The translations under genes were made by a program, and so were the position numbers. The notes under the pieces are model-generated. The model worked only from the letters and a program-made list of their open reading frames with translations, was not told where the DNA came from and searched no databases. A stretch of DNA of 64,000 bases from Methanolobus bombayensis (GTDB lineage Archaea > Halobacteriota > Methanosarcinia > Methanosarcinales > Methanosarcinaceae): positions 1 to 64,000 of the forward strand of contig NZ_JAGGKD010000004.1 in the NCBI RefSeq assembly GCF_017873415.1, read 5' to 3'. Shown here one piece after another: positions 4,474-19,547 of the stretch; position 1 is the stretch's first letter, and each line of letters begins with the position of its first letter.

Positions 4474-4829
4474 GAATATACCAGATTTTTTGTTAAAATA
4501 TATTAGAATACATCTGTTTTATACACTTGGTGGATTCACTGTTTGATTTTTAAAATACCTTCTATTGAAAAACTATATTTTATTTTGTTAGATAGTCTGG
4601 TCAGGTCTACTTAGTAACATTATATATTCATCTTATGGCTCCGTTTTTTGAGTCATAGAATCATAAAATACATTAAAGGAAGTTATCTTCTTCATATGAA
4701 TAAATTTTAGATTAAGATATGTTAACTTTGATTCTACGGTCTCCATTGACCATTAATATATTATACATTAAGTAATCACTTCCTTGATAAGTGCTCAGGC
4801 ATTGGTTGATTCAATTATATGATGGTAAA
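4474..4829. other. Gene-free 356-bp intergenic region
   Basis: I see no coding frame or RNA gene here. A weak hairpin (TATGGCTC at 4634-4641 with GAGTCATA at 4650-4657, one G-U pair) lies in the middle. An AT-rich block near 4752-4770 could serve as TATA element for the following kinase. Confidence 0.4.
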
Positions 4830-7370
4830 ATGACGCAGCTCGATGTAAATTCAGAAATTGCAAAAGTCGTTAATGACAGTCCTGTGACAATTTTCATATG
4901 GAAAGCTGAAGAAGGGTGGCCAGTAGAATTTGTTTCTGAGAATGTCAGGCAGTTCGGATACTCACCTGATGATTTTCTTTCGGGCAAACTAAATTATGAA
5001 GATATCATCCATCCAGATGATATTGAGCGTGTATACAAAGAGGTTACCGAATACTCAGGAACACATATTGATAATTTCGTACAGGAATACAGGATATTAA
5101 CGGCATCTGGTGAAACACGTTGTATTGACGACAGGACCATCATCCGAAGAGATGACAATGGTAATATTCAGTATTATGAAGGTGTCATCCTGGATATAAG
5201 CCAGCGAAAACTCTCTGAAGCAATTATTGATTGTCGCAATCAGGTTCTTGAAGCTCTGGCTTCAGGTGAAACTCTGAATGAGATTCTTACGCGTTTGGTT
5301 AGATCTACTAAAAGGATTATACCCGAAGCAATCAGTATCGTCATGTTACTGGACGAGGAAAAGGAACATCTGGTTCATGCTATTTCTACTCATCTTCCGG
5401 ATTTTTATAAAAAAGCTATCGAAGGACTTCCCATAGGTGAAGGTATTGGCTCCTGTTCAACTGCTGTTTACACTGGCAAAAGGGTTGTTGTAGAAGATAT
5501 AATGGAGCATCCATACTGGGAAGATCTCAGGGAAGTTGCACTTAAGGCAGGTCTTAGAGCCAGTTGTTGTGAACCTATAATAAGTTCGAATAATGAGGTC
5601 TTTGGAACTTTCGGAATGTACTTCCGAGAACCACATACGCCTACGCAGGAAGAGATCGATATACTGAAGGCAAATGCCAATCTTGCAGCTATAGCAATAA
5701 ACAACAAGAAGACTCTGGATAATGCACTTGAATCTGAACAAAAACTCAGGATTATTCTCAATAATGTAAACGATCAGATATATATCAGTGAACTTGACGG
5801 GAAAAATGTCGCTGTGAATCAGGCTGTAGTAGATACATTGGGTTACAGTAAGAAAGAGATGCTAAGTACATATCCTTCAGATATAGTTCCAGCAAAAGAT
5901 GTACGCCGTGTATCAAAACTCATGAAGGGGATCGAAACTGACGGAAGGGCGATATATGAAACCGAGGCAATAAGCAAGGATGGTAAACAGATCCCTCTTG
6001 AAGTAAGTGCACGATTTGTTATCTATGATGGGAAGAAAACTATCCTTTCCGTTGCCAGAGATATCACTGAACGCAAAAAGGCTGAAAGCAAACGCCTTCT
6101 TGAAGAGGAAAGACTTGAAGCTCTTGTTAAACTAAATAGTATGACCGGTGCATCATTGAATGAGATCACAGATTTTGCAAGGGAAGAAGCTGTAAGGCTT
6201 ACTGAAAGTTCACTTGGATATCTTGCATTTATGAATGCTGACGAAACTGCACTTATCATGCATTCCTGGTCGGAAAGTGCTATGAAGGAATGTGGTATCA
6301 AAGACAAAAACTTCGTATATCCCATCGAAACCACCGGTTTGTGGGGTGAAGCAGTAAAACAGCGCAGACCCATAATAACAAATGATTATTCTCTTCCAAG
6401 TCCTATGAAAAAAGGATATCCTGGAAATCATGTGGAACTGACACGGCATATGAATATTCCGATATTTGATGGCGACCACATAGTAGCAGTTGCAGGTGTT
6501 GGAAACAAAGAAGAGGAGTACAATGAATCAGATGTACGTCAGCTCACTTTATTGATGCAGGGCATGTGGAGCCTTATTCAAAGAAAGCAAATAGAGGATG
6601 CCCTGAAGCAATATTCCGATGAGCTGAAAATGGCAAATGAGGAACTAAGGTCCATCAGCAGGATCAAAACAGAATTCATTGCAGAAAGACTGGAATTTAT
6701 ATACAGGCCTGAGAACTCAGAGTCCAGTATACTCGATGATGAGATGATCAGAGCCATTGATGACCAGCAGGCAAAAGCTATTAATTCCGTTTTGCTCAAC
6801 TCTGAAAGATTAAAACGCATGGTAAATTCACTTCTGTATATGAGTCAGGAGCAGGCAGGAAAGATAGAATATACCTTTTCTCTGACTCATGTAGACAAAC
6901 TGATATCAGAAGCTTTGATGAATCTCATATTACTAATCGATGAGAAAGGAATTACTTTAGAAGTGGATGTTCCTGACAGGATGCCTGCAATAAGGTCTGA
7001 TAAGAACAAACTGACGCAAACATTGACAATTCTTATAGATAATGCGGTTAAATTCACTCCTGAAGGTGGAAGGATAAACATAGATGTAGTTGAGGAAAGT
7101 GATTATCTGCACTTGAGGATAGCTGATACGGGAGCTGGTATACATAAGGATCTTATACCACATATCTTCCAAAAATTCTACCAGATGGAAGATGCAAGAA
7201 GTCGAATGTACCAGGGACTTGAATCCGGTTTGTACATCTGTAAGGATATAATTCTTGAACATAAAGGCGAAATATGGATCGAAAGTGAAAAGGGTAAAGG
7301 AACAACATTCCACATAAGGCTTCCAATAGGGGCTGTGGATAATGATTCCTTACAACTAATAAAAACGTGA
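4830..7370 (+). CDS. MsmS-like PAS-GAF-PAS-GAF sensor kinase lacking the phospho-acceptor His
   Basis: An 846-residue cytoplasmic sensor: PAS (about 15-130), GAF (140-295), PAS (300-415), a second GAF (430-585), a dimerisation region (604-680) and HATPase_c (720-835). It resembles the Methanosarcina acetivorans methyl-sulfide sensor MsmS and its relative RdmS, which sit beside msr regulators and mts methyltransferases as here. In MsmS the second GAF binds heme through a Cys; Cys488, His534 and His540 are candidates here, by inference. The H box is degenerate: the usual SHELRTP is replaced by LEFIYRP, so the acceptor His becomes Glu622, with Tyr625 close by. The ATP lid glycines are also altered (GLESGL instead of GTGLGL), while N738 and DTGAGI are kept. 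ATG 4830 has the same GATGGTAAA leader as the next gene; a GTG at 4791 is the alternative. Confidence 0.88.
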   Translation: MTQLDVNSEIAKVVNDSPVTIFIWKAEEGWPVEFVSENVRQFGYSPDDFLSGKLNYEDIIHPDDIERVYKEVTEYSGTHIDNFVQEYRILTASGETRCIDDRTIIRRDDNGNIQYYEGVILDISQRKLSEAIIDCRNQVLEALASGETLNEILTRLVRSTKRIIPEAISIVMLLDEEKEHLVHAISTHLPDFYKKAIEGLPIGEGIGSCSTAVYTGKRVVVEDIMEHPYWEDLREVALKAGLRASCCEPIISSNNEVFGTFGMYFREPHTPTQEEIDILKANANLAAIAINNKKTLDNALESEQKLRIILNNVNDQIYISELDGKNVAVNQAVVDTLGYSKKEMLSTYPSDIVPAKDVRRVSKLMKGIETDGRAIYETEAISKDGKQIPLEVSARFVIYDGKKTILSVARDITERKKAESKRLLEEERLEALVKLNSMTGASLNEITDFAREEAVRLTESSLGYLAFMNADETALIMHSWSESAMKECGIKDKNFVYPIETTGLWGEAVKQRRPIITNDYSLPSPMKKGYPGNHVELTRHMNIPIFDGDHIVAVAGVGNKEEEYNESDVRQLTLLMQGMWSLIQRKQIEDALKQYSDELKMANEELRSISRIKTEFIAERLEFIYRPENSESSILDDEMIRAIDDQQAKAINSVLLNSERLKRMVNSLLYMSQEQAGKIEYTFSLTHVDKLISEALMNLILLIDEKGITLEVDVPDRMPAIRSDKNKLTQTLTILIDNAVKFTPEGGRINIDVVEESDYLHLRIADTGAGIHKDLIPHIFQKFYQMEDARSRMYQGLESGLYICKDIILEHKGEIWIESEKGKGTTFHIRLPIGAVDNDSLQLIKT

Positions 7371-7379
7371 GATGGTAAA

Positions 7380-8165
7380 ATGAAATTGGCTCTGTTAGGT
7401 ACTCTTTTTCTATCGGATAAAAGAAAAGATCTCCTCCTCCTCCTGATAGAAAAACCTATGAATATCGATGAGATCAAAAGCACACTTAATGTCACATCCA
7501 GTGCTATGATGACGCAGATAAAGATCCTCGTTGACCAGGGCATAATACTTTATGAGGATGACCAGTATCGGCTCTCCAGTTTTGGTGAGGTGATCGTAAA
7601 GAAGATGGTTCCTCTTTTAAACACGTTAATGGTGTTCGAAAATAATAAACAATATTGGGAAAATCATAAAGTGCAAGGCATTCCTGCAAATCTTCTTGAG
7701 AGAATAGAAGAACTGGGCTCCTGTGAGCTTGTTGAGCCGGAACTCAATCGTATGTATGAATTACCTAAAAAACTTACTGACAATCTTTTACAGTCAAAAT
7801 ACATCATGGAAATTTCTTCTTCATTCAGTCCTGCATATCCTTATAAATACGTTGAACTTGCCAGAAAAGGGGTTCGAATATCACTTATAATAACTGAACC
7901 TGTATTTGAAAGACTTGAAACGGAGTATTTTGAACAATTAAAGGATTACCTTGGGATGGAAAATACGGAACTTTTTGTGTTCAAAGACGAAATAGGTTTT
8001 GCGTCCAGTGTGGTAACAGACAGATTTCTTTCACTGACATTGTTCTATAAGAACGGCATGTTGCACAATCATGCTATGATGAGTTTTGAAATGAATGCAT
8101 TGATATGGGGAGAAGACATGCATAAGTTTTTCAGGAAAACATCACAAGAAGTAGAGAATATCTGA
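7380..8165 (+). CDS. Msr-type methanogenesis regulator (HTH plus FilR1/DUF1724 domain)
   Basis: A 261-residue DNA-binding protein of the family that includes MsrC, MsrF and MsrG of Methanosarcina, the activators of mts fused methyltransferase genes. The N-terminal winged helix (about residues 10-75) has a helix-turn-helix with SSAMMTQIKILVDQGIILYED. The rest is the FilR1/DUF1724-type sensor domain. It starts 9 bp after the upstream kinase stop, with GATGG before the ATG, so kinase and regulator are surely co-transcribed. The methyltransferase gene it most likely controls starts 363 bp downstream. How the kinase would signal to a protein without a receiver domain is unknown; direct contact or phosphorylation of this protein is possible. 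Confidence 0.9.
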   Translation: MKLALLGTLFLSDKRKDLLLLLIEKPMNIDEIKSTLNVTSSAMMTQIKILVDQGIILYEDDQYRLSSFGEVIVKKMVPLLNTLMVFENNKQYWENHKVQGIPANLLERIEELGSCELVEPELNRMYELPKKLTDNLLQSKYIMEISSSFSPAYPYKYVELARKGVRISLIITEPVFERLETEYFEQLKDYLGMENTELFVFKDEIGFASSVVTDRFLSLTLFYKNGMLHNHAMMSFEMNALIWGEDMHKFFRKTSQEVENI

Positions 8166-8528: not shown

Positions 8529-10433
8529 ATGAAAACAGCAATCTTAAACCAATTAGCGGAAGCTGTGGTCGAAGGTGATGACGACCTGGCTGAAGAACTT
8601 GCACAAAAGGCTCTTGATGAAGGAGTTGATCCTTACGAGGCAATTGTAGATGGACTCGCAAAAGGAATGATAATTGTAAGTGACAAGTATGAAAAGGGTG
8701 AAGCCTTTGTGCCACACCTGCTCATCGCGTCCAGTGCTATGTATGCAGGTATGGATCTGCTTACTCCTCATATGAAAATAGAGGGCAATGGAAAACGTTC
8801 CATTGGTGTAATAGGAACAATAGAAGGAGATGTCCACGACATCGGAAAGAACCTTGTAAAAACAATGCTCTCTGCATCCGGCTTTGATATGGTTGATCTG
8901 GGACATGACGTGCCGGTAGAGAAATTCGTAGAGGTAGCCAAAGAAAAGCAGGCAGACCTGATCTCCATGAGTGCCTTGATGACCACTACCATGACCAACA
9001 TGGAGAAGGTAATTGAGATGCTGCAAGAGGAAGGTACCAGAGATTCTCTTATAGTTATGATCGGAGGAGCACCTGTTTCCCCTGAATTTGCAGAGAAGAT
9101 CGGTGCAGATTCCACACATCCTGATTCCATGGAAGCTACTGAGTGGGCAAAGGATGCTGTAAGCAAACTTGCTCCAGCTGAACAAAGATGGAGTGAGGAG
9201 AAGATCTCACTTGGCAAGGTCAAATACAGAGAGATCCTTGCTAAAAAGCAGGTTAAAGGAAAGACAGACATAGGTCTGGAAACTGCAAAGCAGATAGTTT
9301 CTGATTTTGAAAGTGTATCTGTCAAGACAAAAGAAGAAATGACCCACATGGACAGGACACTGGCATCAATGGCTGACAAGAAGGTCGACAGATTGCCTGT
9401 TTATCCTCTGGCATGTGGTGTATTGAGGAAATTCGCTGATGTAAACTACAAGGAGTATGCTACTGATATCAATGCATTCGTTGAGAGTGCTTACCTTGGA
9501 TCCAAATATCTGGATACTGACATGTTCGTAGGTCTCATCGATCTTTCTGCAACATCAGCTGATTTCGGATGTAAGATAAAGTACCCGGAAGATGACACAC
9601 CTTCATCTGAAGGACACCTTGAGGCATATGAACAGATTGAAGTTCCTGAGGTCAAAGAAGGTACCCGTGCCTATGAGCTTATAATGGCTTCCAAAGCAGC
9701 CACTGAGAAACTTAATAAGGAACTCGACACACCATTTGTGGGATTCCATGAAGGTCCTCTGCTTACCCTTACCCAGCTTATGGGTGCGGATCGTGTCCTG
9801 ATGGATATGAAGACACATCCTGATGTGGTGCTTGAAGCAGTCCAGAAATGTACGGATTACATCTGCCAGGTATCTGAACTGTTCTTTGAAGAAAGTGCCT
9901 GTAATGCGCTGTGTATCGATAATCTCTGGTCTAACAATGTGATCATGAGCGAGGAGGACTACTGGAAGTTCGATGGTAAGTTCGTGTATGACCAGCACCT
10001 GCCTATATTCAAGCAATACGATCAGCCTTACATAATACACAACTGTGCAGATGCAGTACACTTTGATACACAGATATCAAAATTCGGAACACAGCTGTAC
10101 AGCTACGCATACTATCCAAAACTAAGGGGCAAGGGCTCACAGAACTATGCAGACCTTATTCCAAAGTATGGTAATGAATGCTGTATGATGGGAGAGATTA
10201 ATCCTGTAGAGTTCATGGATAATACTCCTGCAGGTGTTCAGAAGGTAAAGGACGACACCAAGGATCTGCTTGAAGGCGTGCTTCCTGTGCTCAAGGAGAA
10301 TGGACTACAATCCAAGTACGTCATGGCATCTGGATGTGAAATCCCGCCCGGAGGTCCTCTTACAACCGTGAAGGCAATGGTAGACGTTGTCAAAGAAATG
10401 GGTCCGGACCTTCAGAAACAAATACTCGGATAA
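8529..10433 (+). CDS. Fused corrinoid protein / methyltransferase, MtsD/MtsF/MtsH type
   Basis: A 634-residue fusion. Residues 1-215 are a methylamine/methionine-synthase-type corrinoid protein: a helical cap, then the cobalamin signature DVHDIG with the cobalt-ligand His103. Residues 265-634 are a UroD-fold methyltransferase with the zinc ligand set His504, Cys506 and Cys603 (HNC and SGC). In Methanosarcina such fusions move methyl groups between methyl sulfides or methylmercaptopropionate and coenzyme M through the bound corrinoid; the exact substrate here is unknown. I chose ATG 8529, preceded by GGAGGC; the open frame extends 25 codons upstream but without such a site. A hairpin plus T-run follows the stop, so this gene may be expressed much more than those after it. 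Confidence 0.93.
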   Translation: MKTAILNQLAEAVVEGDDDLAEELAQKALDEGVDPYEAIVDGLAKGMIIVSDKYEKGEAFVPHLLIASSAMYAGMDLLTPHMKIEGNGKRSIGVIGTIEGDVHDIGKNLVKTMLSASGFDMVDLGHDVPVEKFVEVAKEKQADLISMSALMTTTMTNMEKVIEMLQEEGTRDSLIVMIGGAPVSPEFAEKIGADSTHPDSMEATEWAKDAVSKLAPAEQRWSEEKISLGKVKYREILAKKQVKGKTDIGLETAKQIVSDFESVSVKTKEEMTHMDRTLASMADKKVDRLPVYPLACGVLRKFADVNYKEYATDINAFVESAYLGSKYLDTDMFVGLIDLSATSADFGCKIKYPEDDTPSSEGHLEAYEQIEVPEVKEGTRAYELIMASKAATEKLNKELDTPFVGFHEGPLLTLTQLMGADRVLMDMKTHPDVVLEAVQKCTDYICQVSELFFEESACNALCIDNLWSNNVIMSEEDYWKFDGKFVYDQHLPIFKQYDQPYIIHNCADAVHFDTQISKFGTQLYSYAYYPKLRGKGSQNYADLIPKYGNECCMMGEINPVEFMDNTPAGVQKVKDDTKDLLEGVLPVLKENGLQSKYVMASGCEIPPGGPLTTVKAMVDVVKEMGPDLQKQILG

Positions 10434-10551: not shown

Positions 10552-10601
10552 CAACCACCTCAACCTCCACACATTAACCCTCCACATAAAAGGTGATAAC
10601 A

Positions 10602-12533
10602 ATGAATCTTGGGCTTGGCATAGACACTGGCGGCACATATACAGATGCCGTGATCATGGATTTTGAAGATGGATCGATAATCGATTCCAACAAATCTCTT
10701 ACTACTTACCCTGATCTCATCAAGGGCATAATTAATTCTATTGAAGGTCTAAAACCTGAATATCTTGCTGATGTGAGGTTCACTTCGGTATCCACCACGC
10801 TCGCCACTAACACCACTCTGGAGGGCAAGGGATATCCGGCGGGTCTAATACTCATTGGCTATAATATATCCCGTAAAATTCCTACGGATCATATTCTTTC
10901 CATTGAAGGCAGGCATGATGCCGATGGGAATGAAGTGGAACCCCTGAGCGATCTGGAGGATGTAAAGGAATTTGTAAAAGCGAATCAGCATAAAGTCTCC
11001 TCATTTGCCTTATCTTCATATTTTGGAGTACGCAACCCTGAACATGAACTTACTATCAAGGAGATGATTCAGGACCTTACAGATCTTCCGGTGGTCTGCG
11101 GACATGAACTTTCCATGGACCTTGGTGCTTATGAAAGAGCTTTGACAGCACTCCTTAATGCTCAGTTGATCCCGGTAATTGATGAGTTCATAAGATCTGT
11201 ACGGTCTGTAATGCGGGATAAGAATATCAATTCCGTCCTGATGATGATGAGATGTGACGGATCACTGGTTAAGATAGAAGAGGCATTGAAAAAACCAGTG
11301 GAATCTATTTTTTCCGGACCTGCAGCAAGTCTGCTTGGCGCTGCACACCTGACAGGCCTCAGGGACTGCCTGACAATTGATGTGGGAGGCACGAGTACGG
11401 ATATTTCTATGATCCAGAATGGCATGCCTGCTATCAGCGGTTCCGGTGCTGTGGTCGGTGGCTGGGATACAATGGTCAAGGCAATTAAAATGAATACATC
11501 TGCCATTGGGGGAGACAGTCATGTCTGGATGAAAGAAAGAACGTATATAGGACCTAACAGGGTCATACCTCTGTGTCTTTGTGCTTCTGAATTCCCTTCT
11601 ATAATAAGCAAACTGCAGAATGCTGAAAAAAGCTCCAGGCGCATAATGAACGACATTATCCAACCAACATCATTCTTCATGTCCAATGGAGCAAAATCCC
11701 ATTCGCTTCATGCCTCAGAGCTGGAGATCGAAGAAATGGAAATATTTGACGCCATCACAGAAGAGCCTTCTTCAATATCAGATATTGCTTCAAGGACAAA
11801 TAAGCATCCTCTGATATTCGAAAGTACTCTGAAAAGGCTCATACAGAAAAGATATGTAAGACAGGTGGGTTTCACTCCGACCGACGTTCTGCATGTGACC
11901 GGTGACTATACCAGATGGAATCCCACTGCATCGATGTTGGGAGCTGCGATAATTTCTGAATACACCTCAATGGATCTATTTGATCTCTGTGCCAAACTCA
12001 AAGAAGATGTATCCAGAGGAATTGTACTCAATCTAATTGCACACTGCGCAGATAATGTGGAGAAGGCTGGCCTGGAAAAAATATTGAATGGCACAGAACT
12101 AATGAAATTCACAATAAAGGACCCTGTGGTAATGGTAGGAGCTCCTGTGGCTGCATATGTGAAAGACATGGAAAATGTTATTGATGCGGATATAAGGGTC
12201 CCGGAGTATCATGAAGTGGGTAATGCTGTGGGTGCTCTTGTAGGTAATGTGGTCTACAGGGAAGAAGTATTGATAAGACCCAAAGCACCCGGTAGCTCGG
12301 AGTATCTACTATTCTCTGAAAAAGGAAGATACATGTTCGACAATTATCAGGATGCTCTTGATATGGCAAATTCCCTTGTCAATAATACAGTTTCAGAGTA
12401 TATGTCAGGTTACGGATTAAGTATGGATAACGTCACTTTCGATCTTGAATCCAATAACATCGGAAGTATTGGAACAGTTCCTCTTGAGACAAAGATCGTT
12501 GGAGTAGCTGTTGGTTCTCCAAGGAGGTTATAA
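10602..12533 (+). CDS. Hydantoinase/oxoprolinase-family (HyuA-like) ASKHA ATPase
   Basis: A 643-residue protein of the hydantoinase A/oxoprolinase family. It has the two phosphate-binding motifs of the actin/Hsp70-like fold, GIDTGGTYTDAV at residues 6-17 and DVGGTSTDIS at about 260. Family members use ATP to open cyclic amides, but this one sits between methyltransferase, chaperonin and RamA genes. A role in corrinoid or methyl-donor metabolism, or as an ATP-driven conditioning protein like RamA (also ASKHA), is inferred. Residues of about 375-435 look like a winged-helix insert (IFDAITEEPSSISDIASRTNKH...), unusual for the family. The ATG at 10602 follows AAAGGTGAT; the GTG at 10593 is part of that site. 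The next gene begins one base after the stop. Confidence 0.85.
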   Translation: MNLGLGIDTGGTYTDAVIMDFEDGSIIDSNKSLTTYPDLIKGIINSIEGLKPEYLADVRFTSVSTTLATNTTLEGKGYPAGLILIGYNISRKIPTDHILSIEGRHDADGNEVEPLSDLEDVKEFVKANQHKVSSFALSSYFGVRNPEHELTIKEMIQDLTDLPVVCGHELSMDLGAYERALTALLNAQLIPVIDEFIRSVRSVMRDKNINSVLMMMRCDGSLVKIEEALKKPVESIFSGPAASLLGAAHLTGLRDCLTIDVGGTSTDISMIQNGMPAISGSGAVVGGWDTMVKAIKMNTSAIGGDSHVWMKERTYIGPNRVIPLCLCASEFPSIISKLQNAEKSSRRIMNDIIQPTSFFMSNGAKSHSLHASELEIEEMEIFDAITEEPSSISDIASRTNKHPLIFESTLKRLIQKRYVRQVGFTPTDVLHVTGDYTRWNPTASMLGAAIISEYTSMDLFDLCAKLKEDVSRGIVLNLIAHCADNVEKAGLEKILNGTELMKFTIKDPVVMVGAPVAAYVKDMENVIDADIRVPEYHEVGNAVGALVGNVVYREEVLIRPKAPGSSEYLLFSEKGRYMFDNYQDALDMANSLVNNTVSEYMSGYGLSMDNVTFDLESNNIGSIGTVPLETKIVGVAVGSPRRL

Positions 12534-12534
12534 C

Positions 12535-14142
12535 ATGAGCACTTCATTAGAGAATGTACAAAATATACATTCACTGGACAATATGGATGCCCTGCGTCAG
12601 AGTGTACGTAATCGTATAGGGATCAAAGATGATGTAGAAGAGGATGAACTGATATACCAGATGCTACAGGCGTCCAATGACATCAAAGACCTATTTTCAA
12701 CATCTTTCGGTCCCCGTGGCCAGAGTAAGATAATAATCAGTCCTACGGATGATATTTATCTTACAAGTGATGGTAAGACAATAATTGAACAGATCGATGT
12801 ATTGCATCCTGTGGTCACTTCCCTCAAAGAACTTGCTATATCCATGGACAGGGTATGTGGTGATGGTACAAAGACCTCAGTAATCCTTGCTGCAACACTT
12901 ATCGAGAATGCTGCTAAACTTATGGATTACGGACTGCATCCGACCACTATCATAAAAGGATACCAGCTTGCTTTGAATAAAGTGTATGATATCCTGAACT
13001 ATGAAAGTACACAGATAGTTTCTGATGATGAGCTCTATTCTGTAATAGAAAATGCAAGTTTGAGTAAAGGTGTTGAACCTCATCAGGCCGGGATGATCGC
13101 AGATATTGTTCTAAGAACACTTTCAGATATCAGGGAGCTTCATGTTGGTAACCATATAGATCTGAATGAATATATCAAGGTTATAAAAAAGGTAGGCGGC
13201 CCTTCTATCGAATCTGTCAATGGAATAATTCTTGATGAGACACCTGCAAGACCTGATATGCCGGACCATCTGGAAGATGCACGTGTACTAATGGTGAACG
13301 GTAATGTCAAATTCGAAAGTAAGATCATAAATTCCCAGCGTAATTTGAGAATAGATTGTTTTGACAATTCCGGACTTCTCCTGCAGGGTCAAAAGAGTAA
13401 TTTAAAAGTCATGTCCCGGAAGCTGATTGATTCCGGAGCAAACATCATTCTCTGTGAAGGAGATGTGGATGAATTCGTAGAGGAGTCCCTTGCAAAAAAG
13501 GGTATTCTACTTTTCAAAAAACTGAAGATACGGGACATGGAAATGGTCGGAAAAGCAACCGGTGCAAGTATCATTTCCATCCGGGATGACATCGTTCCTT
13601 ATGATCTTGGTCTTGTCAATGAGGTGAAGGTCGAAAAGAGGAACGATGAATATTTCCTTTTTATGTCTGTCAATGAACAGCCTATATCCACGATTATGAT
13701 ATGGGAGCCTTTCAGATATGGTCTTGAAAAACTTGAGGAGTCAGTGGATGATGCCATCAATAATGCAGCATTCATATTGAAGAATCCTCTCGTTGTCAAA
13801 GGGGGTGGAGATATTGAGTTTGTTCTTTCACAGATGCTCAGAAAGTATTCCTCAACTATTGAAGGTAAGGAGCAACTTGCAGTTATCGAATATGCAAACG
13901 CTCTTGAAGAGATTCCCAGAACGCTTGCAAAAAACGTAGGTCTTAATGAAGTGGATGCGATAACGAAGATGCTAACATCTTATAACGAAGGAATCGATTC
14001 CAGGATCGACCTTACAAGAAATGTCGTTCAAAACTATCCTCCAGTTTATGATTCCTCCAGTATCAAACAAATGGCTGTTATCGCGGCAACAGAGGCTGTA
14101 AGCAATATGCTGAGGATTGATAAGATTGTACTTAAAAAGTAA
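12535..14142 (+). CDS. Divergent group II chaperonin (thermosome/Hsp60-like) in a methyltransferase operon
   Basis: A 535-residue thermosome-family protein, an ATP-driven folding chamber subunit. Recognisable are GPRG at 59-62, TSDGKTII, the ATP loop CGDGTKTS at 108-115, an apical domain with a lid-forming segment, VVKGGGDIE, and EQLAVIEYANALEEIPRTLAKNVGL. The catalytic Asp of the ESVDDA block is kept, so ATPase activity is plausible. It lacks the Gly/Met-rich C-terminal tail of thermosomes and carries an acidic N-terminal extension of about 35 residues. It starts one base after hyuA, with AAGGAGGT before the ATG, so translation is probably coupled. M. acetivorans is known to have extra Hsp60-like subunits beyond the thermosome; this may be of that type. 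Location suggests a client among the neighbouring corrinoid enzymes. Confidence 0.93.
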   Translation: MSTSLENVQNIHSLDNMDALRQSVRNRIGIKDDVEEDELIYQMLQASNDIKDLFSTSFGPRGQSKIIISPTDDIYLTSDGKTIIEQIDVLHPVVTSLKELAISMDRVCGDGTKTSVILAATLIENAAKLMDYGLHPTTIIKGYQLALNKVYDILNYESTQIVSDDELYSVIENASLSKGVEPHQAGMIADIVLRTLSDIRELHVGNHIDLNEYIKVIKKVGGPSIESVNGIILDETPARPDMPDHLEDARVLMVNGNVKFESKIINSQRNLRIDCFDNSGLLLQGQKSNLKVMSRKLIDSGANIILCEGDVDEFVEESLAKKGILLFKKLKIRDMEMVGKATGASIISIRDDIVPYDLGLVNEVKVEKRNDEYFLFMSVNEQPISTIMIWEPFRYGLEKLEESVDDAINNAAFILKNPLVVKGGGDIEFVLSQMLRKYSSTIEGKEQLAVIEYANALEEIPRTLAKNVGLNEVDAITKMLTSYNEGIDSRIDLTRNVVQNYPPVYDSSSIKQMAVIAATEAVSNMLRIDKIVLKK

Positions 14143-14160: not shown

Positions 14161-15276
14161 ATGCCTGAAGAAATGACTTCAAAGGAACGTTTTGTCAACG
14201 CTCTTGAATTTAAAGAAGTGGATAGGGTACCACTGGGATATTTGTGGTTTGGAGCTGGTAATGCGGTACTTGACCGTATGAATGCGAGCATGGAGGATGT
14301 TTATTATTCCGCAAAAGGAATCGCAAGAGCACAAATATTAGCAAGGGAAATGTATCACCATGACAATGTAATGTCTCCATGGGGATGCTTGCTTGTGGAA
14401 GCGGAGGCAATGGGGGCAAAAATAAACATCAAGAAAGATGGCTATCCCTCAATTGCTGAATTTCCTCTTAAGTCTGCAAAGGAATACGAAAATATAGACC
14501 CGATTGTCATGGAACGTTCAGAAAGGAGCAGGACAATTGAAAGATCCATATCCCTGCTCAAAGAACAGCTTGGAGATGAGGTTTTTATTAGCTGTGCGCT
14601 CCTTACTCCTCTCATGCTTGCTTCCCAGTTAATGGATGGGAGCAGAATGTTCATTGAAATGATGAAGGATACCGATAATTTCCATTCACTGCTTGATGTT
14701 CTCACTGACAGTTGCATCACCTTTGCAGATATGTTACTTGATGCAGGAGCAGATGGTGCATTCATTGAGAATGGCGGGAGCACTTCTGATCTTTTCAGTC
14801 TGGAAATGGCAAAAGAGTTTGGCTTTGATTATTCTAAGAAGTTATATTCACACATACAGGATAGAGGTGGTTATGTGATTTCACATAACTGTGCAAACCA
14901 TGCTTTTCATGAACTGGAAATGGCTCTTGAACCGGACGCTTTGAATTTCTTCTTTGGGAATGTTGAAACACTTGATAAGAAATATGGTGTTGATTGTCTG
15001 AAACTTCATAATCATAACCACACTGGTTGCAGCAAAAGATATTGTTTCAGGGATTTCAGAGAGTTCAGTGATCAGGACATATGCCTGATGGGGAATATCA
15101 ATCCATATGCATTCAGTTTCGGGGGAGGAAAAAATATCGGTACTGAAGTAAAGAGTTGTATGGATGCTGCGCCTGATAAAGGTTTCATACTAAGTACCGG
15201 ATGTGAACTTCCATTAAATACGCCTCCGGAAGAGATGATGATTCTATGGGAATCAATGAGATCATGTTTTAAATAG
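14161..15276 (+). CDS. Stand-alone UroD-family corrinoid methyltransferase
   Basis: A 371-residue protein of the uroporphyrinogen decarboxylase fold, in the branch of methylcobamide methyltransferases. The zinc ligand set is visible as His242 and Cys244 (SHNC) and Cys348 (STGCELPLNTPPEE). It has an unusual His/Cys cluster before the C-terminal part, LHNHNHTGCSKRYC at about 282-295, which could bind another metal. It contains no corrinoid domain, so it must use a separate corrinoid protein; the only one in the block is fused to the upstream Mts-type protein. It starts 18 bp after the chaperonin stop with GGGGGAG before the ATG. The methyl donor or acceptor is unknown. Confidence 0.88.
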   Translation: MPEEMTSKERFVNALEFKEVDRVPLGYLWFGAGNAVLDRMNASMEDVYYSAKGIARAQILAREMYHHDNVMSPWGCLLVEAEAMGAKINIKKDGYPSIAEFPLKSAKEYENIDPIVMERSERSRTIERSISLLKEQLGDEVFISCALLTPLMLASQLMDGSRMFIEMMKDTDNFHSLLDVLTDSCITFADMLLDAGADGAFIENGGSTSDLFSLEMAKEFGFDYSKKLYSHIQDRGGYVISHNCANHAFHELEMALEPDALNFFFGNVETLDKKYGVDCLKLHNHNHTGCSKRYCFRDFREFSDQDICLMGNINPYAFSFGGGKNIGTEVKSCMDAAPDKGFILSTGCELPLNTPPEEMMILWESMRSCFK

Positions 15277-15286
15277 GGGTAATAAA

Positions 15287-16909
15287 ATGTACGGAATTGC
15301 ATTAGATGTGGGAACCAGTGGCTTTAGAGCCCAATTGATCGACCTTGAAACAAAAGAAGTAATCAAGACTTCAATGACAATGAAGCATCCGTTGCCAGGT
15401 GGCAATGTAACTGACCATCTTGACTTTGCCATATCAATTGGTGAAGATGTGGCACATAATATAATCATAGATGCTGTCGGAAAAATGATAGAGGGATTCG
15501 ATGTTGATCCATTGCAGATATCCAGGATGGCTGTTTGTGGTAACCCTATCCAGCTCTCCCTTTTCCAGAACTCGGAGATACGCGATCTGGCTTATGTAGG
15601 GAAAAATATGCGGAAAAGACTGGGTATAGATAATGTGCAACGTGATGCCCGGATATTCAAAGCTACTGATATATTCCATGGGATCCTGAATCTTGATAAT
15701 TGTTTGATAATTATTCCGCCTGCCATTGAGCATGAGATTGGTGCTGATGCGCTTGCTATGATTGTGGAGACAGATTTTCTTGAACAGGAAGAACCAACCC
15801 TTGTAACGGATTACGGAACTAACGCTGAGATGGCCATAAAGGTCGGCAACAGGATAATTACAGCAAGTGCTGCCGCAGGACCTGCTATAGAAGGACAGGG
15901 CATAAGTTGTGGTATGCTTGCAGCTCCGGGAGCTATTACTAATGTTGATCTGGAAGGTGGGTTCTGGAGAATATCAGTACTAAATGAGAATATGGATGTT
16001 GTAAAAGGTCATCTTATAGATCCTATAAGCGGAACAATACTTGAAGGGTCGGATGTGGTACCTACCGGTATTACGGGGACAGGGCTTATTTCAATATTGT
16101 CTCTTGCGATAGAAACAGGGATCGTGGTAAGTCCACCTAAACTAAAGTATGGAAAGATCGAACTTGGTGATGGTATCGAGGTATCAGAAGAGGATATCAA
16201 AGAGGCTGGTAAGGCCATAGGCGCTATAAGGGCTGCTCAGTTAACCCTGATACATGAATCCGGTATCGCTTATAAAGAACTCGAAACCATGTACATGAGC
16301 GGTGCTTCCGGTACCTATGTAGATCCTGGGAAAGCAAGAAAAATAGGCGCGTGTCCTGATTTTACTAAGAGATCAGTGCAGTTCGGTAATACATCTCTGT
16401 CTCTTGCAAGAGATATAATTCTTGAAAAGGTTAAACTTGATTCTTTGATAGAATTGGCAGGAAACATTAAAGCTGATCATCTAATGATGGCAACCAGTGA
16501 AACCTTCAAGAAACTCTACGCCTGTGAACTTGGATACTGGACAGAAGGTATGTCCATAGAGATGTACCGAAAACTTTTGAAGATGTCAAAATTGCCAGAA
16601 CTGCCAGTTCCTGTAGAATATCCTGTGTTTGAGAAGAGGGTTACTAAAGATATTAGTGAGACTGGTAACAGGCGGGTAGAAGTAATAGAGGACATCGGTG
16701 TCACTCTTGAAGAACTGGCAGTGGGATGCATAATGTGCCACAAATGTGAAAATGAATGTCCGGAGCATGCGATATTCATAAAAGCTGATGATAATCTCTT
16801 TGCAGAATACAACAGCTTGAAATGTCTGGGAACGGCATGCAAAAGATGTGTGAATGTGTGCCCGGTACATGCAATTGACTACAAAGAGATAAAGATCATG
16901 GAAAACTGA
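15287..16909 (+). CDS. ramA: RamA-like corrinoid protein reductive activase
   Basis: A 540-residue ATP-dependent reductive activase that returns inactive Co(II) corrinoid to Co(I) in methanogen methyltransferase systems. The N-terminal ASKHA part starts with ALDVGTSGFRAQLID and has a second motif VTDYGTNAEMA. The C-terminus carries two [4Fe-4S] sites: Cys481, 484, 487 and 491 (CX2CX2CX3CP) and Cys513, 518, 521 and 525 (CX4CX2CX3CP). It lies 10 bp after the UroD-type gene with GGGGTAATAAA before the ATG. The cluster context makes the fused corrinoid methyltransferase the natural client. RamA is the family name; whether it also serves methylamine systems elsewhere in the genome is unknown. Confidence 0.92.
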   Translation: MYGIALDVGTSGFRAQLIDLETKEVIKTSMTMKHPLPGGNVTDHLDFAISIGEDVAHNIIIDAVGKMIEGFDVDPLQISRMAVCGNPIQLSLFQNSEIRDLAYVGKNMRKRLGIDNVQRDARIFKATDIFHGILNLDNCLIIIPPAIEHEIGADALAMIVETDFLEQEEPTLVTDYGTNAEMAIKVGNRIITASAAAGPAIEGQGISCGMLAAPGAITNVDLEGGFWRISVLNENMDVVKGHLIDPISGTILEGSDVVPTGITGTGLISILSLAIETGIVVSPPKLKYGKIELGDGIEVSEEDIKEAGKAIGAIRAAQLTLIHESGIAYKELETMYMSGASGTYVDPGKARKIGACPDFTKRSVQFGNTSLSLARDIILEKVKLDSLIELAGNIKADHLMMATSETFKKLYACELGYWTEGMSIEMYRKLLKMSKLPELPVPVEYPVFEKRVTKDISETGNRRVEVIEDIGVTLEELAVGCIMCHKCENECPEHAIFIKADDNLFAEYNSLKCLGTACKRCVNVCPVHAIDYKEIKIMEN

Positions 16910-16948: not shown

Positions 16949-17263
16949 ATGACAGAAGTAAAGGTAAATTCCAATATTTGCGGTTTCACTCATGTCGTAA
17001 GAGGTAAAAAGGATGGTCAAAAGATAATTGTTGACATTGACACTCCATGTGAGAAGATAAAGAAAATGTCTCATCTAGAGGTCGACACGATGGATCTTTT
17101 TGATATTAAAGATAATATTGTAATGGAAAAGGCTAAAGAAGCCAGATGTACTGCTACATGCCTTGTGCCCTGTGCAGTAATGCATATATGTTGTATAGAA
17201 GCAGATTTCATGTCGAGTACCCTTGCCAAAGAATCAGGAAGCCTTAGTATCGAGTTTTTGTGA
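16949..17263 (+). CDS. Small Cys-rich conserved protein next to methyltransferase genes
   Basis: A 104-residue protein with a basic first half and a Cys-rich second half: CGFTH near the start, then CTATCLVPCAVMHICCIE. Nine Cys in this length suggest a metal or Fe-S site. I believe it belongs to a conserved domain-of-unknown-function family found near methanogen methyltransferases, but that is from memory. AAGGAGAATATATA precedes the ATG. It lies between ramA and the MtbA-like gene, all in one direction, so it is probably co-expressed. No function is assigned. Confidence 0.8.
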   Translation: MTEVKVNSNICGFTHVVRGKKDGQKIIVDIDTPCEKIKKMSHLEVDTMDLFDIKDNIVMEKAKEARCTATCLVPCAVMHICCIEADFMSSTLAKESGSLSIEFL

Positions 17264-17340: not shown

Positions 17341-18384
17341 ATGTATATTAGCGAAACAAGATCAAATCTCTCAAATAAATTCCAGGATATACTTGACGGA
17401 AAAAAGGTAGACACTCCTCTTGTCGGTACGGCCACCACATCAGCAATACTTGAGTTGATGGATATTTCCGGAGCAAGCAGACCAGAAGCTGACAGGGATC
17501 CGGAAAAAATGGTAAAACTTGCTTCTTCCTTCCATACAGTTGCCAGGTTTGAGGTAATTCGCATTCCATTCGATGTGACAGTTGTCGGTGAGGCACTTGG
17601 ATGTCAGGTAGATATTGGCACGAAGGCAAGGACACCATCAATAATAACTCATCCTTTTGACAAAGATCCCTCAGAGTTCAATGTACCAGCCGATCTGCTG
17701 GAAAGGGGAAGAATACCTGTTGTGATGGAAGCAATATCCATTCTGAAAAATGATCAGGGATTAGAGGCACCTCTCGTTGCAGGTGTTGAAGGACCTGCTG
17801 ACCTTGCATCCTATCTTTGTGGCATCAAATCCTTTTTGAAGTTGACTGTAAAGAAACCTGAAATTGCAAGGGAAATCGTGGAAAAATGCGTCGATGCCTG
17901 CATAGTCTGTGCCAATACCTATCTTCATTCAGGTGCAGATGCAGTGGTGGTTGCAGATTCACTATCTTCTCCGGAGATGATTGGACCTGATGCATTCAGG
18001 AATATTGTTAAACCTGCATTGATCAGATTCAATGAAAAAATAAATGATCATAGTATTCTCCATATATGCGGTGAAGTTGATAGTATAATTCCGGATATGC
18101 TTGAATGTGGTTTTAATGCTATAAGCGTGGAAGAGAATGTTAAGGACCTGGAATATATAATAAATAGTGCTCACAGGAATAATACAGCGGTAATCGGGAA
18201 TGTTTCAACTGCAGATACTCTGTACAGAAAAGCACCGGAAGATGTCAGAAAAGAGGCTTTCAAATGTCTGGATGCAAATATCGATATACTTGCTCCCGGA
18301 TGTGGTCTGGCTCCTGAGACACCTTTGAGAAATCTTCTTGCCATGGTGGAGGCAAGGGATAAGTATGCTGTAAAAAAGTTCTGA
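17341..18384 (+). CDS. Methylcobamide:coenzyme M methyltransferase, MtbA/MtaA family
   Basis: A 347-residue UroD-fold enzyme that transfers the methyl group from a methylated corrinoid protein to coenzyme M, giving methyl-CoM for methanogenesis. The zinc ligands are His241 and Cys243 in LHICGEV and Cys321 in APGCGLAPETPL, the signature of MtbA/MtaA. Length and motif order match the family over the whole protein. The ATG is directly preceded by TTTAAAGG, which is too close to act as a normal ribosome site; an in-frame ATG 15 bases earlier is followed at once by a stop. The presence of this enzyme beside an Mts-type fusion, which can methylate CoM itself, suggests it serves the stand-alone methyltransferase at 14161. 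Confidence 0.92.
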   Translation: MYISETRSNLSNKFQDILDGKKVDTPLVGTATTSAILELMDISGASRPEADRDPEKMVKLASSFHTVARFEVIRIPFDVTVVGEALGCQVDIGTKARTPSIITHPFDKDPSEFNVPADLLERGRIPVVMEAISILKNDQGLEAPLVAGVEGPADLASYLCGIKSFLKLTVKKPEIAREIVEKCVDACIVCANTYLHSGADAVVVADSLSSPEMIGPDAFRNIVKPALIRFNEKINDHSILHICGEVDSIIPDMLECGFNAISVEENVKDLEYIINSAHRNNTAVIGNVSTADTLYRKAPEDVRKEAFKCLDANIDILAPGCGLAPETPLRNLLAMVEARDKYAVKKF

Positions 18385-18905
18385 AATATGAAAGTTCCTA
18401 GTAAATATTATAGAGTTATTTTTCAATGATATCAGGTGTAAATAACAATCTGAATTTTTATTTTATTTACTGAAACATAATCCTATCCTGAATAGGAGGA
18501 TTGGCCAATTTCAATGGAAGGTCCTGGTACATCAATTGGCCAATATTAACAGGCCAAACACAGCAGTTATGCGTGAACCACTATTTGTTATACAGAATAT
18601 ATTTCGGAGAACTTTCTAGTTATTGTTGTATTAGTGTTTGACCTGTTATTTCCTAATATGAATTCTTTGTATATCAATATTACTATTGTTGTAAAAAGTA
18701 GCAACTAATAATTTTTATTTATCTCTAAGTGCTACTACATTGTCTATGTTCAAAATTGAAAATGTAGGATTAAATCATTATTTAGTTTAATATTAACTAA
18801 AAGTAAATTTCTCTTGAGATTTTGTATAAAGAAAAGAATTTAAGTAAAATCTAATAACACGAAAACTATTATATGTATTACTTACTTTTACCCTTCGTGA
18901 TTATC
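18385..18905. other. Gene-free 521-bp region with palindromes
   Basis: No coding frame stands out. The first part holds the stem TCCTAT/ATAGGA (18481-18497) and two copies of the palindrome ATTGGCCAAT. The rest is AT-rich, ending in a TATA candidate (TATTATATGTA, 18867-18877) about 30 bp before the fmdE ATG, which would give a leaderless or very short-leader mRNA. Confidence 0.5.
18500..18544. repeat. Two copies of the palindrome ATTGGCCAAT
   Basis: Perfect 10-bp palindromes at 18500-18509 and 18535-18544, 35 bp apart, downstream of the MtbA-like gene. They may be a tandem operator or, pairing with each other, a large transcript-end stem. Confidence 0.55.
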
Positions 18906-19547
18906 ATGTCATCAGATTGTTCTACCGAAAACAAAACTAGAGAAATTGCTTCATTTGAAGATGCTGCAAAGTTCCATGGACATGTCTGTCCTGGTCTTAC
19001 AATTGGTTACATCGCAGCAAAAGCAGGTATCGAAAAACTGGACACAGAAAGGGATATTGACGAGGAACTTGTCACCATCGTGGAAAACGATGCCTGCGGA
19101 GTTGATGCAGTGCAGGTACTTACAGGCTGCACAATAGGCAAAGGCAATCTTATTTACAAGGACCATGCAAAACAGGTATTCACTTTCATCTGCCGTGACA
19201 GCAAAAAAGCTGTAAGAGTAGCTCTTAAAGCCAGTTTCAATATCGACAACATCGACCCGAAGGTAAGTGAACTTCGTTCTAAGGTTATGTCAGGCTCTGC
19301 AACTGATGAAGAGGAAAAGGAGTTCAGGGAAAGAATGGATGGCATCTCCGTAACAATGAGGAACACTCCTGTTGATGAGATGTTTGAGGTCAAATTCGTT
19401 GATGCGGAGATTCCCGGAAAAGCAAGAATATTCAATTCTCTCCAGTGTGCTAAATGCGGAGAAATGATGGCTGAATCCAGAGCCAGAGTGCAGAATGGTG
19501 AATATATCTGTATCCCATGCTACGAGGAATATGGCAGAGGCTGGTAA
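18906..19547 (+). CDS. fmdE: FmdE family protein (formylmethanofuran dehydrogenase subunit E-like)
   Basis: A 213-residue FmdE-domain protein. The N-terminal signature FHGHVCPGL (His24, His26, Cys28) and NDACGVDAVQ with VLTGCTIGKGN define the family. The C-terminus adds a zinc ribbon with CAKC (181, 184) and CIPC (202, 205). FmdE copurifies with molybdenum formylmethanofuran dehydrogenase in Methanosarcina, but its role is unclear and many stand-alone copies exist; no fmd or fwd gene is nearby. I chose ATG 18906; an earlier ATG at 18873 would overlap the likely TATA element and add a hydrophobic stretch. The start lacks a clear ribosome site, consistent with a leaderless transcript. Confidence 0.9.
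   Translation: MSSDCSTENKTREIASFEDAAKFHGHVCPGLTIGYIAAKAGIEKLDTERDIDEELVTIVENDACGVDAVQVLTGCTIGKGNLIYKDHAKQVFTFICRDSKKAVRVALKASFNIDNIDPKVSELRSKVMSGSATDEEEKEFRERMDGISVTMRNTPVDEMFEVKFVDAEIPGKARIFNSLQCAKCGEMMAESRARVQNGEYICIPCYEEYGRGW

Follow-up and report, generated by a model that had tools for sequence, protein, structure and literature searches.

The window analyzed here is a 64,000-nucleotide stretch of the Methanolobus bombayensis genome, and it carries a cluster of corrinoid methyltransferase genes in the midst of which lies a gene for a group II chaperonin (Table 1). A first-pass annotation, made from the sequence alone, had described this gene as a divergent group II chaperonin coupled to corrinoid methyltransferase genes. 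Its account of the ORF and its start, of the one-base gap between the end of the HyuA-like ORF (12533) and the chaperonin ATG (12535), and of a strong ribosome site ahead of that ATG was confirmed in full. The HyuA-like protein itself is one that we take to have the ASKHA fold. Elsewhere in the window, an FmdE-like protein with a zinc finger is encoded downstream of the cluster (18873-19547), and a large protein with repeated segments and, as judged by eye from the translation, a methyl-accepting chemotaxis-like C-terminus is encoded at 26-2545.

Table 1. Genes and signals of the chaperonin-containing cluster, in window coordinates
Feature	Coordinates	Strand	Details and basis
PAS/GAF histidine kinase	4791..7370	+	precedes the regulator in mtsD-type loci
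FilR1/Msr-type regulator upstream of mtsD	7380..8165	+	PF08350; upstream position conserved in relatives
MtsD orthologue (inferred), fused corrinoid (B12-binding) + URO-D methyltransferase	8529..10433	+	634 aa, 70.1 kDa; PF02607+PF02310+PF01208
HyuA-like protein, possible corrinoid reactivase	10593..12533	+	PF05378 + partial PF01968
Ribosome-binding site AAGGAGGT of the chaperonin gene	12521..12528	+	within the 3' end of the HyuA-like ORF; from sequence
Divergent, tail-less group II chaperonin	12535..14142	+	535 aa, 59.6 kDa; PF00118, clade, AlphaFold model
URO-D family methylcobamide methyltransferase-like protein	14161..15276	+	PF01208, 200.8 bits
RamA-type reductive activator of corrinoid proteins	15287..16909	+	TIGR04270, 741 bits, above cut-off
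DUF6951 protein, recurrent in related neighborhoods	16949..17263	+	PF22263
MtaA-type methylcobamide:CoM methyltransferase	17341..18384	+	NF040654, 454 bits, above cut-off

The chaperonin is homologous over its full length to the Pfam family Cpn60_TCP1 (PF00118; 379.6 bits, residues 50-534), while the NCBIfam thermosome models scored only 330-336 bits, below all of their curated cut-offs (400, 450 and 671). Its AlphaFold model (mean pLDDT 86.8) found its best PDB matches in the group II chaperonin structures 1q3r and 9cpk, with a TM-score of about 0.8-0.85 to the Thermococcus and Mm-cpn structures. The region of the helical protrusion, i.e., the built-in lid, is present in the alignment, and the model fell below a pLDDT of 50 at residues 264-267 and 269-276. 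The protein ends in LRIDKIVLKK and thus has no thermosome-type tail, whether Gly/Met-rich or acid-rich; five displayed divergent relatives and one sequence from another family end at the same alignment position. The missing Gly/Met-rich tail had been claimed by the first-pass annotation and held, as did the classification as a divergent group II chaperonin, which is borne out by PF00118, the fold and the clade described below. The acidic N-terminal extension that it also reported is real (10 D/E against 4 K/R in the first 49 residues), but it is short, reaching some 10 residues beyond that of L001, a thermosome of the same genome, and is variable among relatives.

Assignment of residues to ATP hydrolysis in this fold rests on work with Mm-cpn and GroEL. 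By alignment, the chaperonin retains the GPxG, TxDG, GDGT and GGG motifs together with the individual residues D79, G109-T112, K178, D406 and GGG423-425. The claim that the ATP-binding and catalytic motifs are kept was therefore upheld with one correction: the P-loop reads GDGTK and not GDGTT, the T to K change being shared by all 55 aligned relatives. Among 135 thermosome-conserved columns, 59 are conserved in 90% or more of clade members, and the ATPase residues are among these, except for the T to K position. It is possible that this conserved change weakens ATP hydrolysis, which is an inference from the sequence without ATPase data; since DGTKT also occurs in the beta subunit of a solved chaperonin, ATPase need not be lost through this change by itself. 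Purifying selection on the gene (dN/dS of 0.04-0.18 in 12 locus pairs) excludes a chance ORF at this position and, together with the conserved ATPase residues, rules out a degenerate pseudogene.

The genome contains five PF00118 genes, namely three thermosomes (563-636 bits), the window gene (380 bits) and L005 (279 bits). The idea that L005 might be another divergent group II gene was rejected; L005 is likely a group I GroEL, because it gave no BLAST match to the window protein and grouped with L214 as outgroup. A search of 111 genomes of the family retrieved 59 further genes, which make up, with the window gene, the 60 clade genes considered here; clade members scored 338-1150 bits with 41-100% identity to the window chaperonin, and all other chaperonins of the same genomes scored at most 262 bits with about 31% identity, leaving a clean gap. 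In named genomes, 38 loci were found, of which 35 belong to the clade if at least 41% identity is taken as the criterion. The clade records belong to Methanolobus, Methanococcoides, Methanosalsum, Methanohalobium, Methanosarcina and Methanimicrococcus or carry general labels, and the closest named relatives of the window chaperonin are from Methanolobus.

Alignment A1 comprised 55 of the 60 clade genes, as L066, L085, L091, L092 and L093 were partial, split or contained unknown bases. In a 67-protein tree that took 27 of these 55, the clade formed one side of a branch with 100/99 support, outside the thermosomes. A second tree, with 15 of the 55, recovered it again at 100/99, and the chaperonins of two genomes from outside the family, G257 and G364, together formed its sister (100/100). 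T_L278 was omitted from the second tree for lack of a sequence, and L251, L252 and L254 were excluded since the longest frame picked lay on the wrong strand. Placement as an ordinary thermosome subunit was one of the outcomes that the first-pass annotation had named as refuting its proposal; the phylogeny did not produce it, and an ordinary thermosome duplicate is ruled out by the model cut-offs, the tree and the neighborhoods alike. Phage records gave only two weak partial matches, and a phage origin was rejected.

The neighborhoods of the clade are strikingly uniform. A fused methyltransferase gene of the kind found in the window lies within 5 kb on the same strand of 58 of the 60 clade genes, upstream in 53 and downstream in 5 by the nearest-gene rule of the script. 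The remaining two genes are at contig edges, with about 1.9 kb of contig upstream that is occupied by a HyuA-like gene. No fused methyltransferase was found in any of 23 control neighborhoods of thermosome genes (two of them short), two of which contained a HyuA-like gene. Broad neighborhoods, the other refuting outcome that had been named, were thus not observed. The pair is retained across ten genera and through reversed gene order in two loci.

The two genes also co-occur. Of the 111 family genomes, 47 contain both, none the chaperonin only, 5 the methyltransferase only and 59 neither (Fisher p 5e-26, relatedness ignored); presence varies within six genera, in each of which both genes vary together, the five exceptions aside. 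These five are G091, where two contig ends each cut a chaperonin short, and G095, G048, G047 and G100, where a contig break interrupts one or more copies; of these, G047 and G100 are moreover only 70% and 60% complete. From the contig ends and completeness, we read all five as contig breaks or incomplete genomes. Overall, the genetic coupling is near complete, and the biochemical role that it suggests is inferred.

Other neighbors are less constant. The HyuA-like gene, a frequent partner, is within 300 nucleotides of 41 of the 60 chaperonin genes, and in most mtsD-type relatives with the commonest arrangement of the family the two overlap by 4 nucleotides; in 17 of 58 loci, all beside more divergent enzymes (51-57% identity), there is none within 3 kb. 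RamA-type genes occur in many mts loci and also where the chaperonin is absent. By manual reading, a CobW/COG0523 GTPase gene adjoins the chaperonin or lies one gene beyond it in 16 of the 60 loci, e.g., L082 (11237-12340) and L084 (7202-8305). With so few loci, and none among the genes scanned in the window cluster, it was rejected as a general partner; where present, it could fit a metal-loading step, without proving it.

The identity of the partner enzyme was inferred through G074, which we take to be M. acetivorans. The window enzyme is 80% identical to the G074 gene at 1.02 Mb, the position of which was inferred to be that of MtsD. At locus L082 of G074, the fused protein is followed by the chaperonin, CobW, a 258-residue gene, a 461-residue gene and a HyuA-like gene; the 258- and 461-residue genes fit MtaC and MtaB by length only, and the order agrees with the published run from mtsF to mtaCB2 and the hydantoinases MA4395-MA4396. 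On this assignment and gene order, the window enzyme would be MtsD, and the two other G074 copies would be MtsF (55%) and MtsH (69%). The mtsD gene has been reported in Methanolobus at 78-81% identity (PMC10762971), and MtsD prefers dimethylsulfide and MtsF methanethiol (PMC7374477). An Mts enzyme would need cobamide and, by analogy with MtaA, zinc. Thus, the coupling to corrinoid methyltransferases proposed by the first-pass annotation held in a narrower form, applying to the methylsulfide enzymes MtsD and MtsF and not to corrinoid methyltransferases at large. MA4384-MA4394 is reported as the longest contiguous block regulated upon HdrED repression (PMC11619418, section 13), and it includes the chaperonin as judged by the gene order in L082; a term search of that paper returned no mention of a chaperonin or Hsp60.

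In 294 genomes of the phylum, the clade was found only in the family, and the methyltransferase was found additionally in G257; a later class search added G364. Both genomes, which we take to be Archaeoglobi as a guess, have a chaperonin gene that follows the methyltransferase, at 12 nucleotides in G257 and 8 nucleotides in G364. Both of these chaperonins are altered in their motifs, with TKKG or TRKG for TxDG, and GDGV or RDGV for GDGT. At L215 (2022-3617) and L277 (8045-9586) the Asp of TxDG is lost and GDGT is altered in a gene that still lies beside the methyltransferase; these proteins may possibly be without ATPase, an inference from sequence.

Genomes with both enzymes provided an additional view of the pairing. 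The MtsD-side and MtsF-side chaperonins are 88-99.6% identical in most of them, whereas the enzymes are only 50-55% identical; the exception is one G086 chaperonin copy that is 54-56% identical to its two siblings. The D/F label changes 9 times on the chaperonin tree against once on the enzyme tree. All chaperonin copies of a genome cluster together in G074, G081 and G086, as do two of three in G006 and G007, but not those of G008 and G096. The tract of high DNA identity coincides with the chaperonin ORF (within about 75 bases) in 5 of 7 comparisons; in G074 it also takes in the CobW gene, and in G007 it overshoots by about 170 bases. The high identity, the discordant trees and the tract limits together point to repeated gene conversion and one interchangeable chaperonin pool, from which it is inferred that a single pool of subunits serves MtsD and MtsF. 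It is to be noted that the mtsF-side chaperonins at L108 (5715-7287, G080) and L093 (G083) are broken by frame changes or stops, with an intact copy elsewhere in each genome.

A parallel was encountered in the Asgard archaea. Locus L152 of a Lokiarchaeota genome (7940-11614) encodes a divergent group II chaperonin with GDGTK, 36 nucleotides after RACo and near MttB, a corrinoid protein and MtrH. When 195 Asgard genomes were searched with L152, seven matched. RACo was directly upstream in all four genomes at 42% or more identity to L152 (its own included), and three of these four (L152, L315, L316, L317) have MttB/MttC beside the chaperonin; GDGTK was read in L152, L315 and L317. Of the three more distant matches, one has RACo at about 3 kb from the chaperonin, and in the other two the stretch read is without it. 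L152 stood beside the Mts clade on a long branch in a first tree, and with other Asgard chaperonins in a better-sampled one. A single ancient clade of all corrinoid-linked chaperonins, Lokiarchaeia included, was disfavored (AU p 0.0176), although the group tested was defined after the data were seen. Since the Lokiarchaeia chaperonins group with Asgard ones and a joint clade is disfavored, chaperonins appear to have been taken up by corrinoid systems on more than one occasion, and the RACo-linked chaperonins are likely a separate recruitment. Separately, a divergent group II chaperonin at L248 (8572-10371, G132) is the last gene of an operon that also encodes McrB, McrG, an McrA-like protein and an ABC ATPase; the operon seems to be one for an alkyl- or methyl-coenzyme M reductase. 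A conserved chaperonin of alkyl-CoM reductase operons was not borne out, as only G132 had it among 58 class genomes, other matches being at 43% or less.

Considering that the chaperonin is found only in archaea with the MtsD/MtsF family, and usually next to it, it probably matures that family and not proteins generally. The reading that we favor, by a modest margin, is that of a chaperonin dedicated to maturing the fused corrinoid/zinc enzymes MtsD and MtsF, in which the ring, the ATPase and the binding of clients are all inferred. In this view, a duplicated group II chaperonin would have become the genetic partner of the Mts enzymes, shedding the Gly/Met tail along with many of the residues specific to thermosomes but retaining the fold and nearly every ATPase residue. 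It would form an ATP-driven, lidded ring that takes newly made 70-kDa Mts chains, in which the corrinoid and URO-D domains must fold both apart and together, and would hold these chains competent for loading of cobamide and zinc. From family knowledge and inference, the neighboring HyuA-like and RamA-type proteins would then activate the bound corrinoid. The specialization for one enzyme family that the first-pass annotation had raised is therefore supported by the genomes, in the absence of interaction, ring or ATPase data. Several points limit this reading. Shared regulation alone can also hold genes together in a conserved operon. No chaperonin is adjacent to the MtsH-like genes of G074 and G006, which speaks against a dedicated chaperonin, and the homogenized copies speak against fine tuning to one paralogue. 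Lastly, an ATP-driven cycle may not be general, because the members from outside the family have lost further ATPase residues.

The rival that survives best, and which remains possible, is a corrinoid reactivation machine, in which the chaperonin and an ASKHA partner (the HyuA-like protein here, RACo in Lokiarchaeia) would remodel the mature methyltransferase, opening its corrinoid domain so that inactive cobamide is reduced or exchanged, instead of folding new chains. It is favored by the proximity of HyuA-like genes, often with the 4-nucleotide overlap, by RACo directly upstream in the four closer Lokiarchaeia genomes, and by the RamA-type genes of many mts loci. Against it are the 17 loci without a nearby HyuA-like gene and the presence of RamA-type genes where no chaperonin exists. 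Alternatively, the protein might be an extra thermosome subunit that joins ordinary rings and shifts their client range when the methylsulfide genes are on. There are indeed three thermosome genes in the same genome, and archaea have two to five group II subunits in rings of incompletely elucidated composition (PMC5220055); nonetheless, this is unlikely given that so few thermosome-conserved columns are kept, that identity to thermosomes is about 31%, and that the chaperonin is missing from the 59 family genomes with neither gene. A mere passenger, i.e., a co-regulated stress chaperonin in the mts island without special relation to the enzyme, is very unlikely: operon position alone is no proof of interaction and the chaperonin protein changes faster than the enzyme in several pairs, but the pair is kept across ten genera, two genomes of another family and reversed order in two loci, and the chaperonin is under purifying selection.

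A bolder extension, for which we hold more doubt than belief, is that two or more separate recruitments, in methylsulfide-using Euryarchaeota and in Lokiarchaeia, turned group II chaperonins into dedicated corrinoid-methyltransferase machines working with ASKHA activators (HyuA-like or RACo). The ATP-driven chaperonin would load, remodel or reactivate the cobamide-bearing enzyme, its client being one cofactor enzyme system.

If the dedicated-chaperonin reading is true, it would explain what the extra, divergent Methanosarcina chaperonins are for, provide a group II example of a chaperonin serving a single enzyme family in an archaeon amenable to genetics, and make the chaperonin a marker gene for the methylsulfide pathway. 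MtsD is a key enzyme for methane from dimethylsulfide, and a hidden maturation factor would matter for its expression elsewhere. Moreover, as gene conversion keeps the chaperonin uniform while its neighbors drift apart, whether clients are shared or private can be tested directly.

Comparison with known systems places the protein as follows. Five group II genes are known in M. acetivorans and three each in M. barkeri and M. mazei (PMC5220055), and three Hsp60 genes have been named (PMC5112694); Maeder et al. 2005 is reportedly the source for Hsp60-4 and Hsp60-5 of Methanosarcina acetivorans. G074 has two group II genes in addition to the canonical three; they are its two clade members, and these match Hsp60-4 and Hsp60-5 as extras, their identity being inferred; the clade thus likely includes both extra M. 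acetivorans chaperonins. A link of these extra chaperonins to mtsD/mtsF was unmentioned in the literature searched, which missed some of the likeliest papers. The window chaperonin resembles thermosome subunits in fold and most ATPase residues, and differs from them in its low identity, its lack of a tail, its GDGTK P-loop, its separate clade and its operon-bound distribution. The Lokiarchaeia chaperonins (L152, L315-L317) are like the Mts clade in being divergent group II proteins in corrinoid methyltransferase neighborhoods, and unlike it in grouping with Asgard chaperonins and in the methyltransferase family, which is MttB. MmoG and MimG are GroEL-like proteins dedicated to bacterial monooxygenase operons. 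They belong to group I and serve di-iron monooxygenases, whereas the window chaperonin is of group II and partners a corrinoid/zinc enzyme; the bacterial enzymes need their chaperonin. The likeness is that of a divergent chaperonin encoded with one metalloenzyme family, and the window chaperonin indeed meets the MmoG-like criterion of being encoded with a single enzyme family and co-occurring with that same family.
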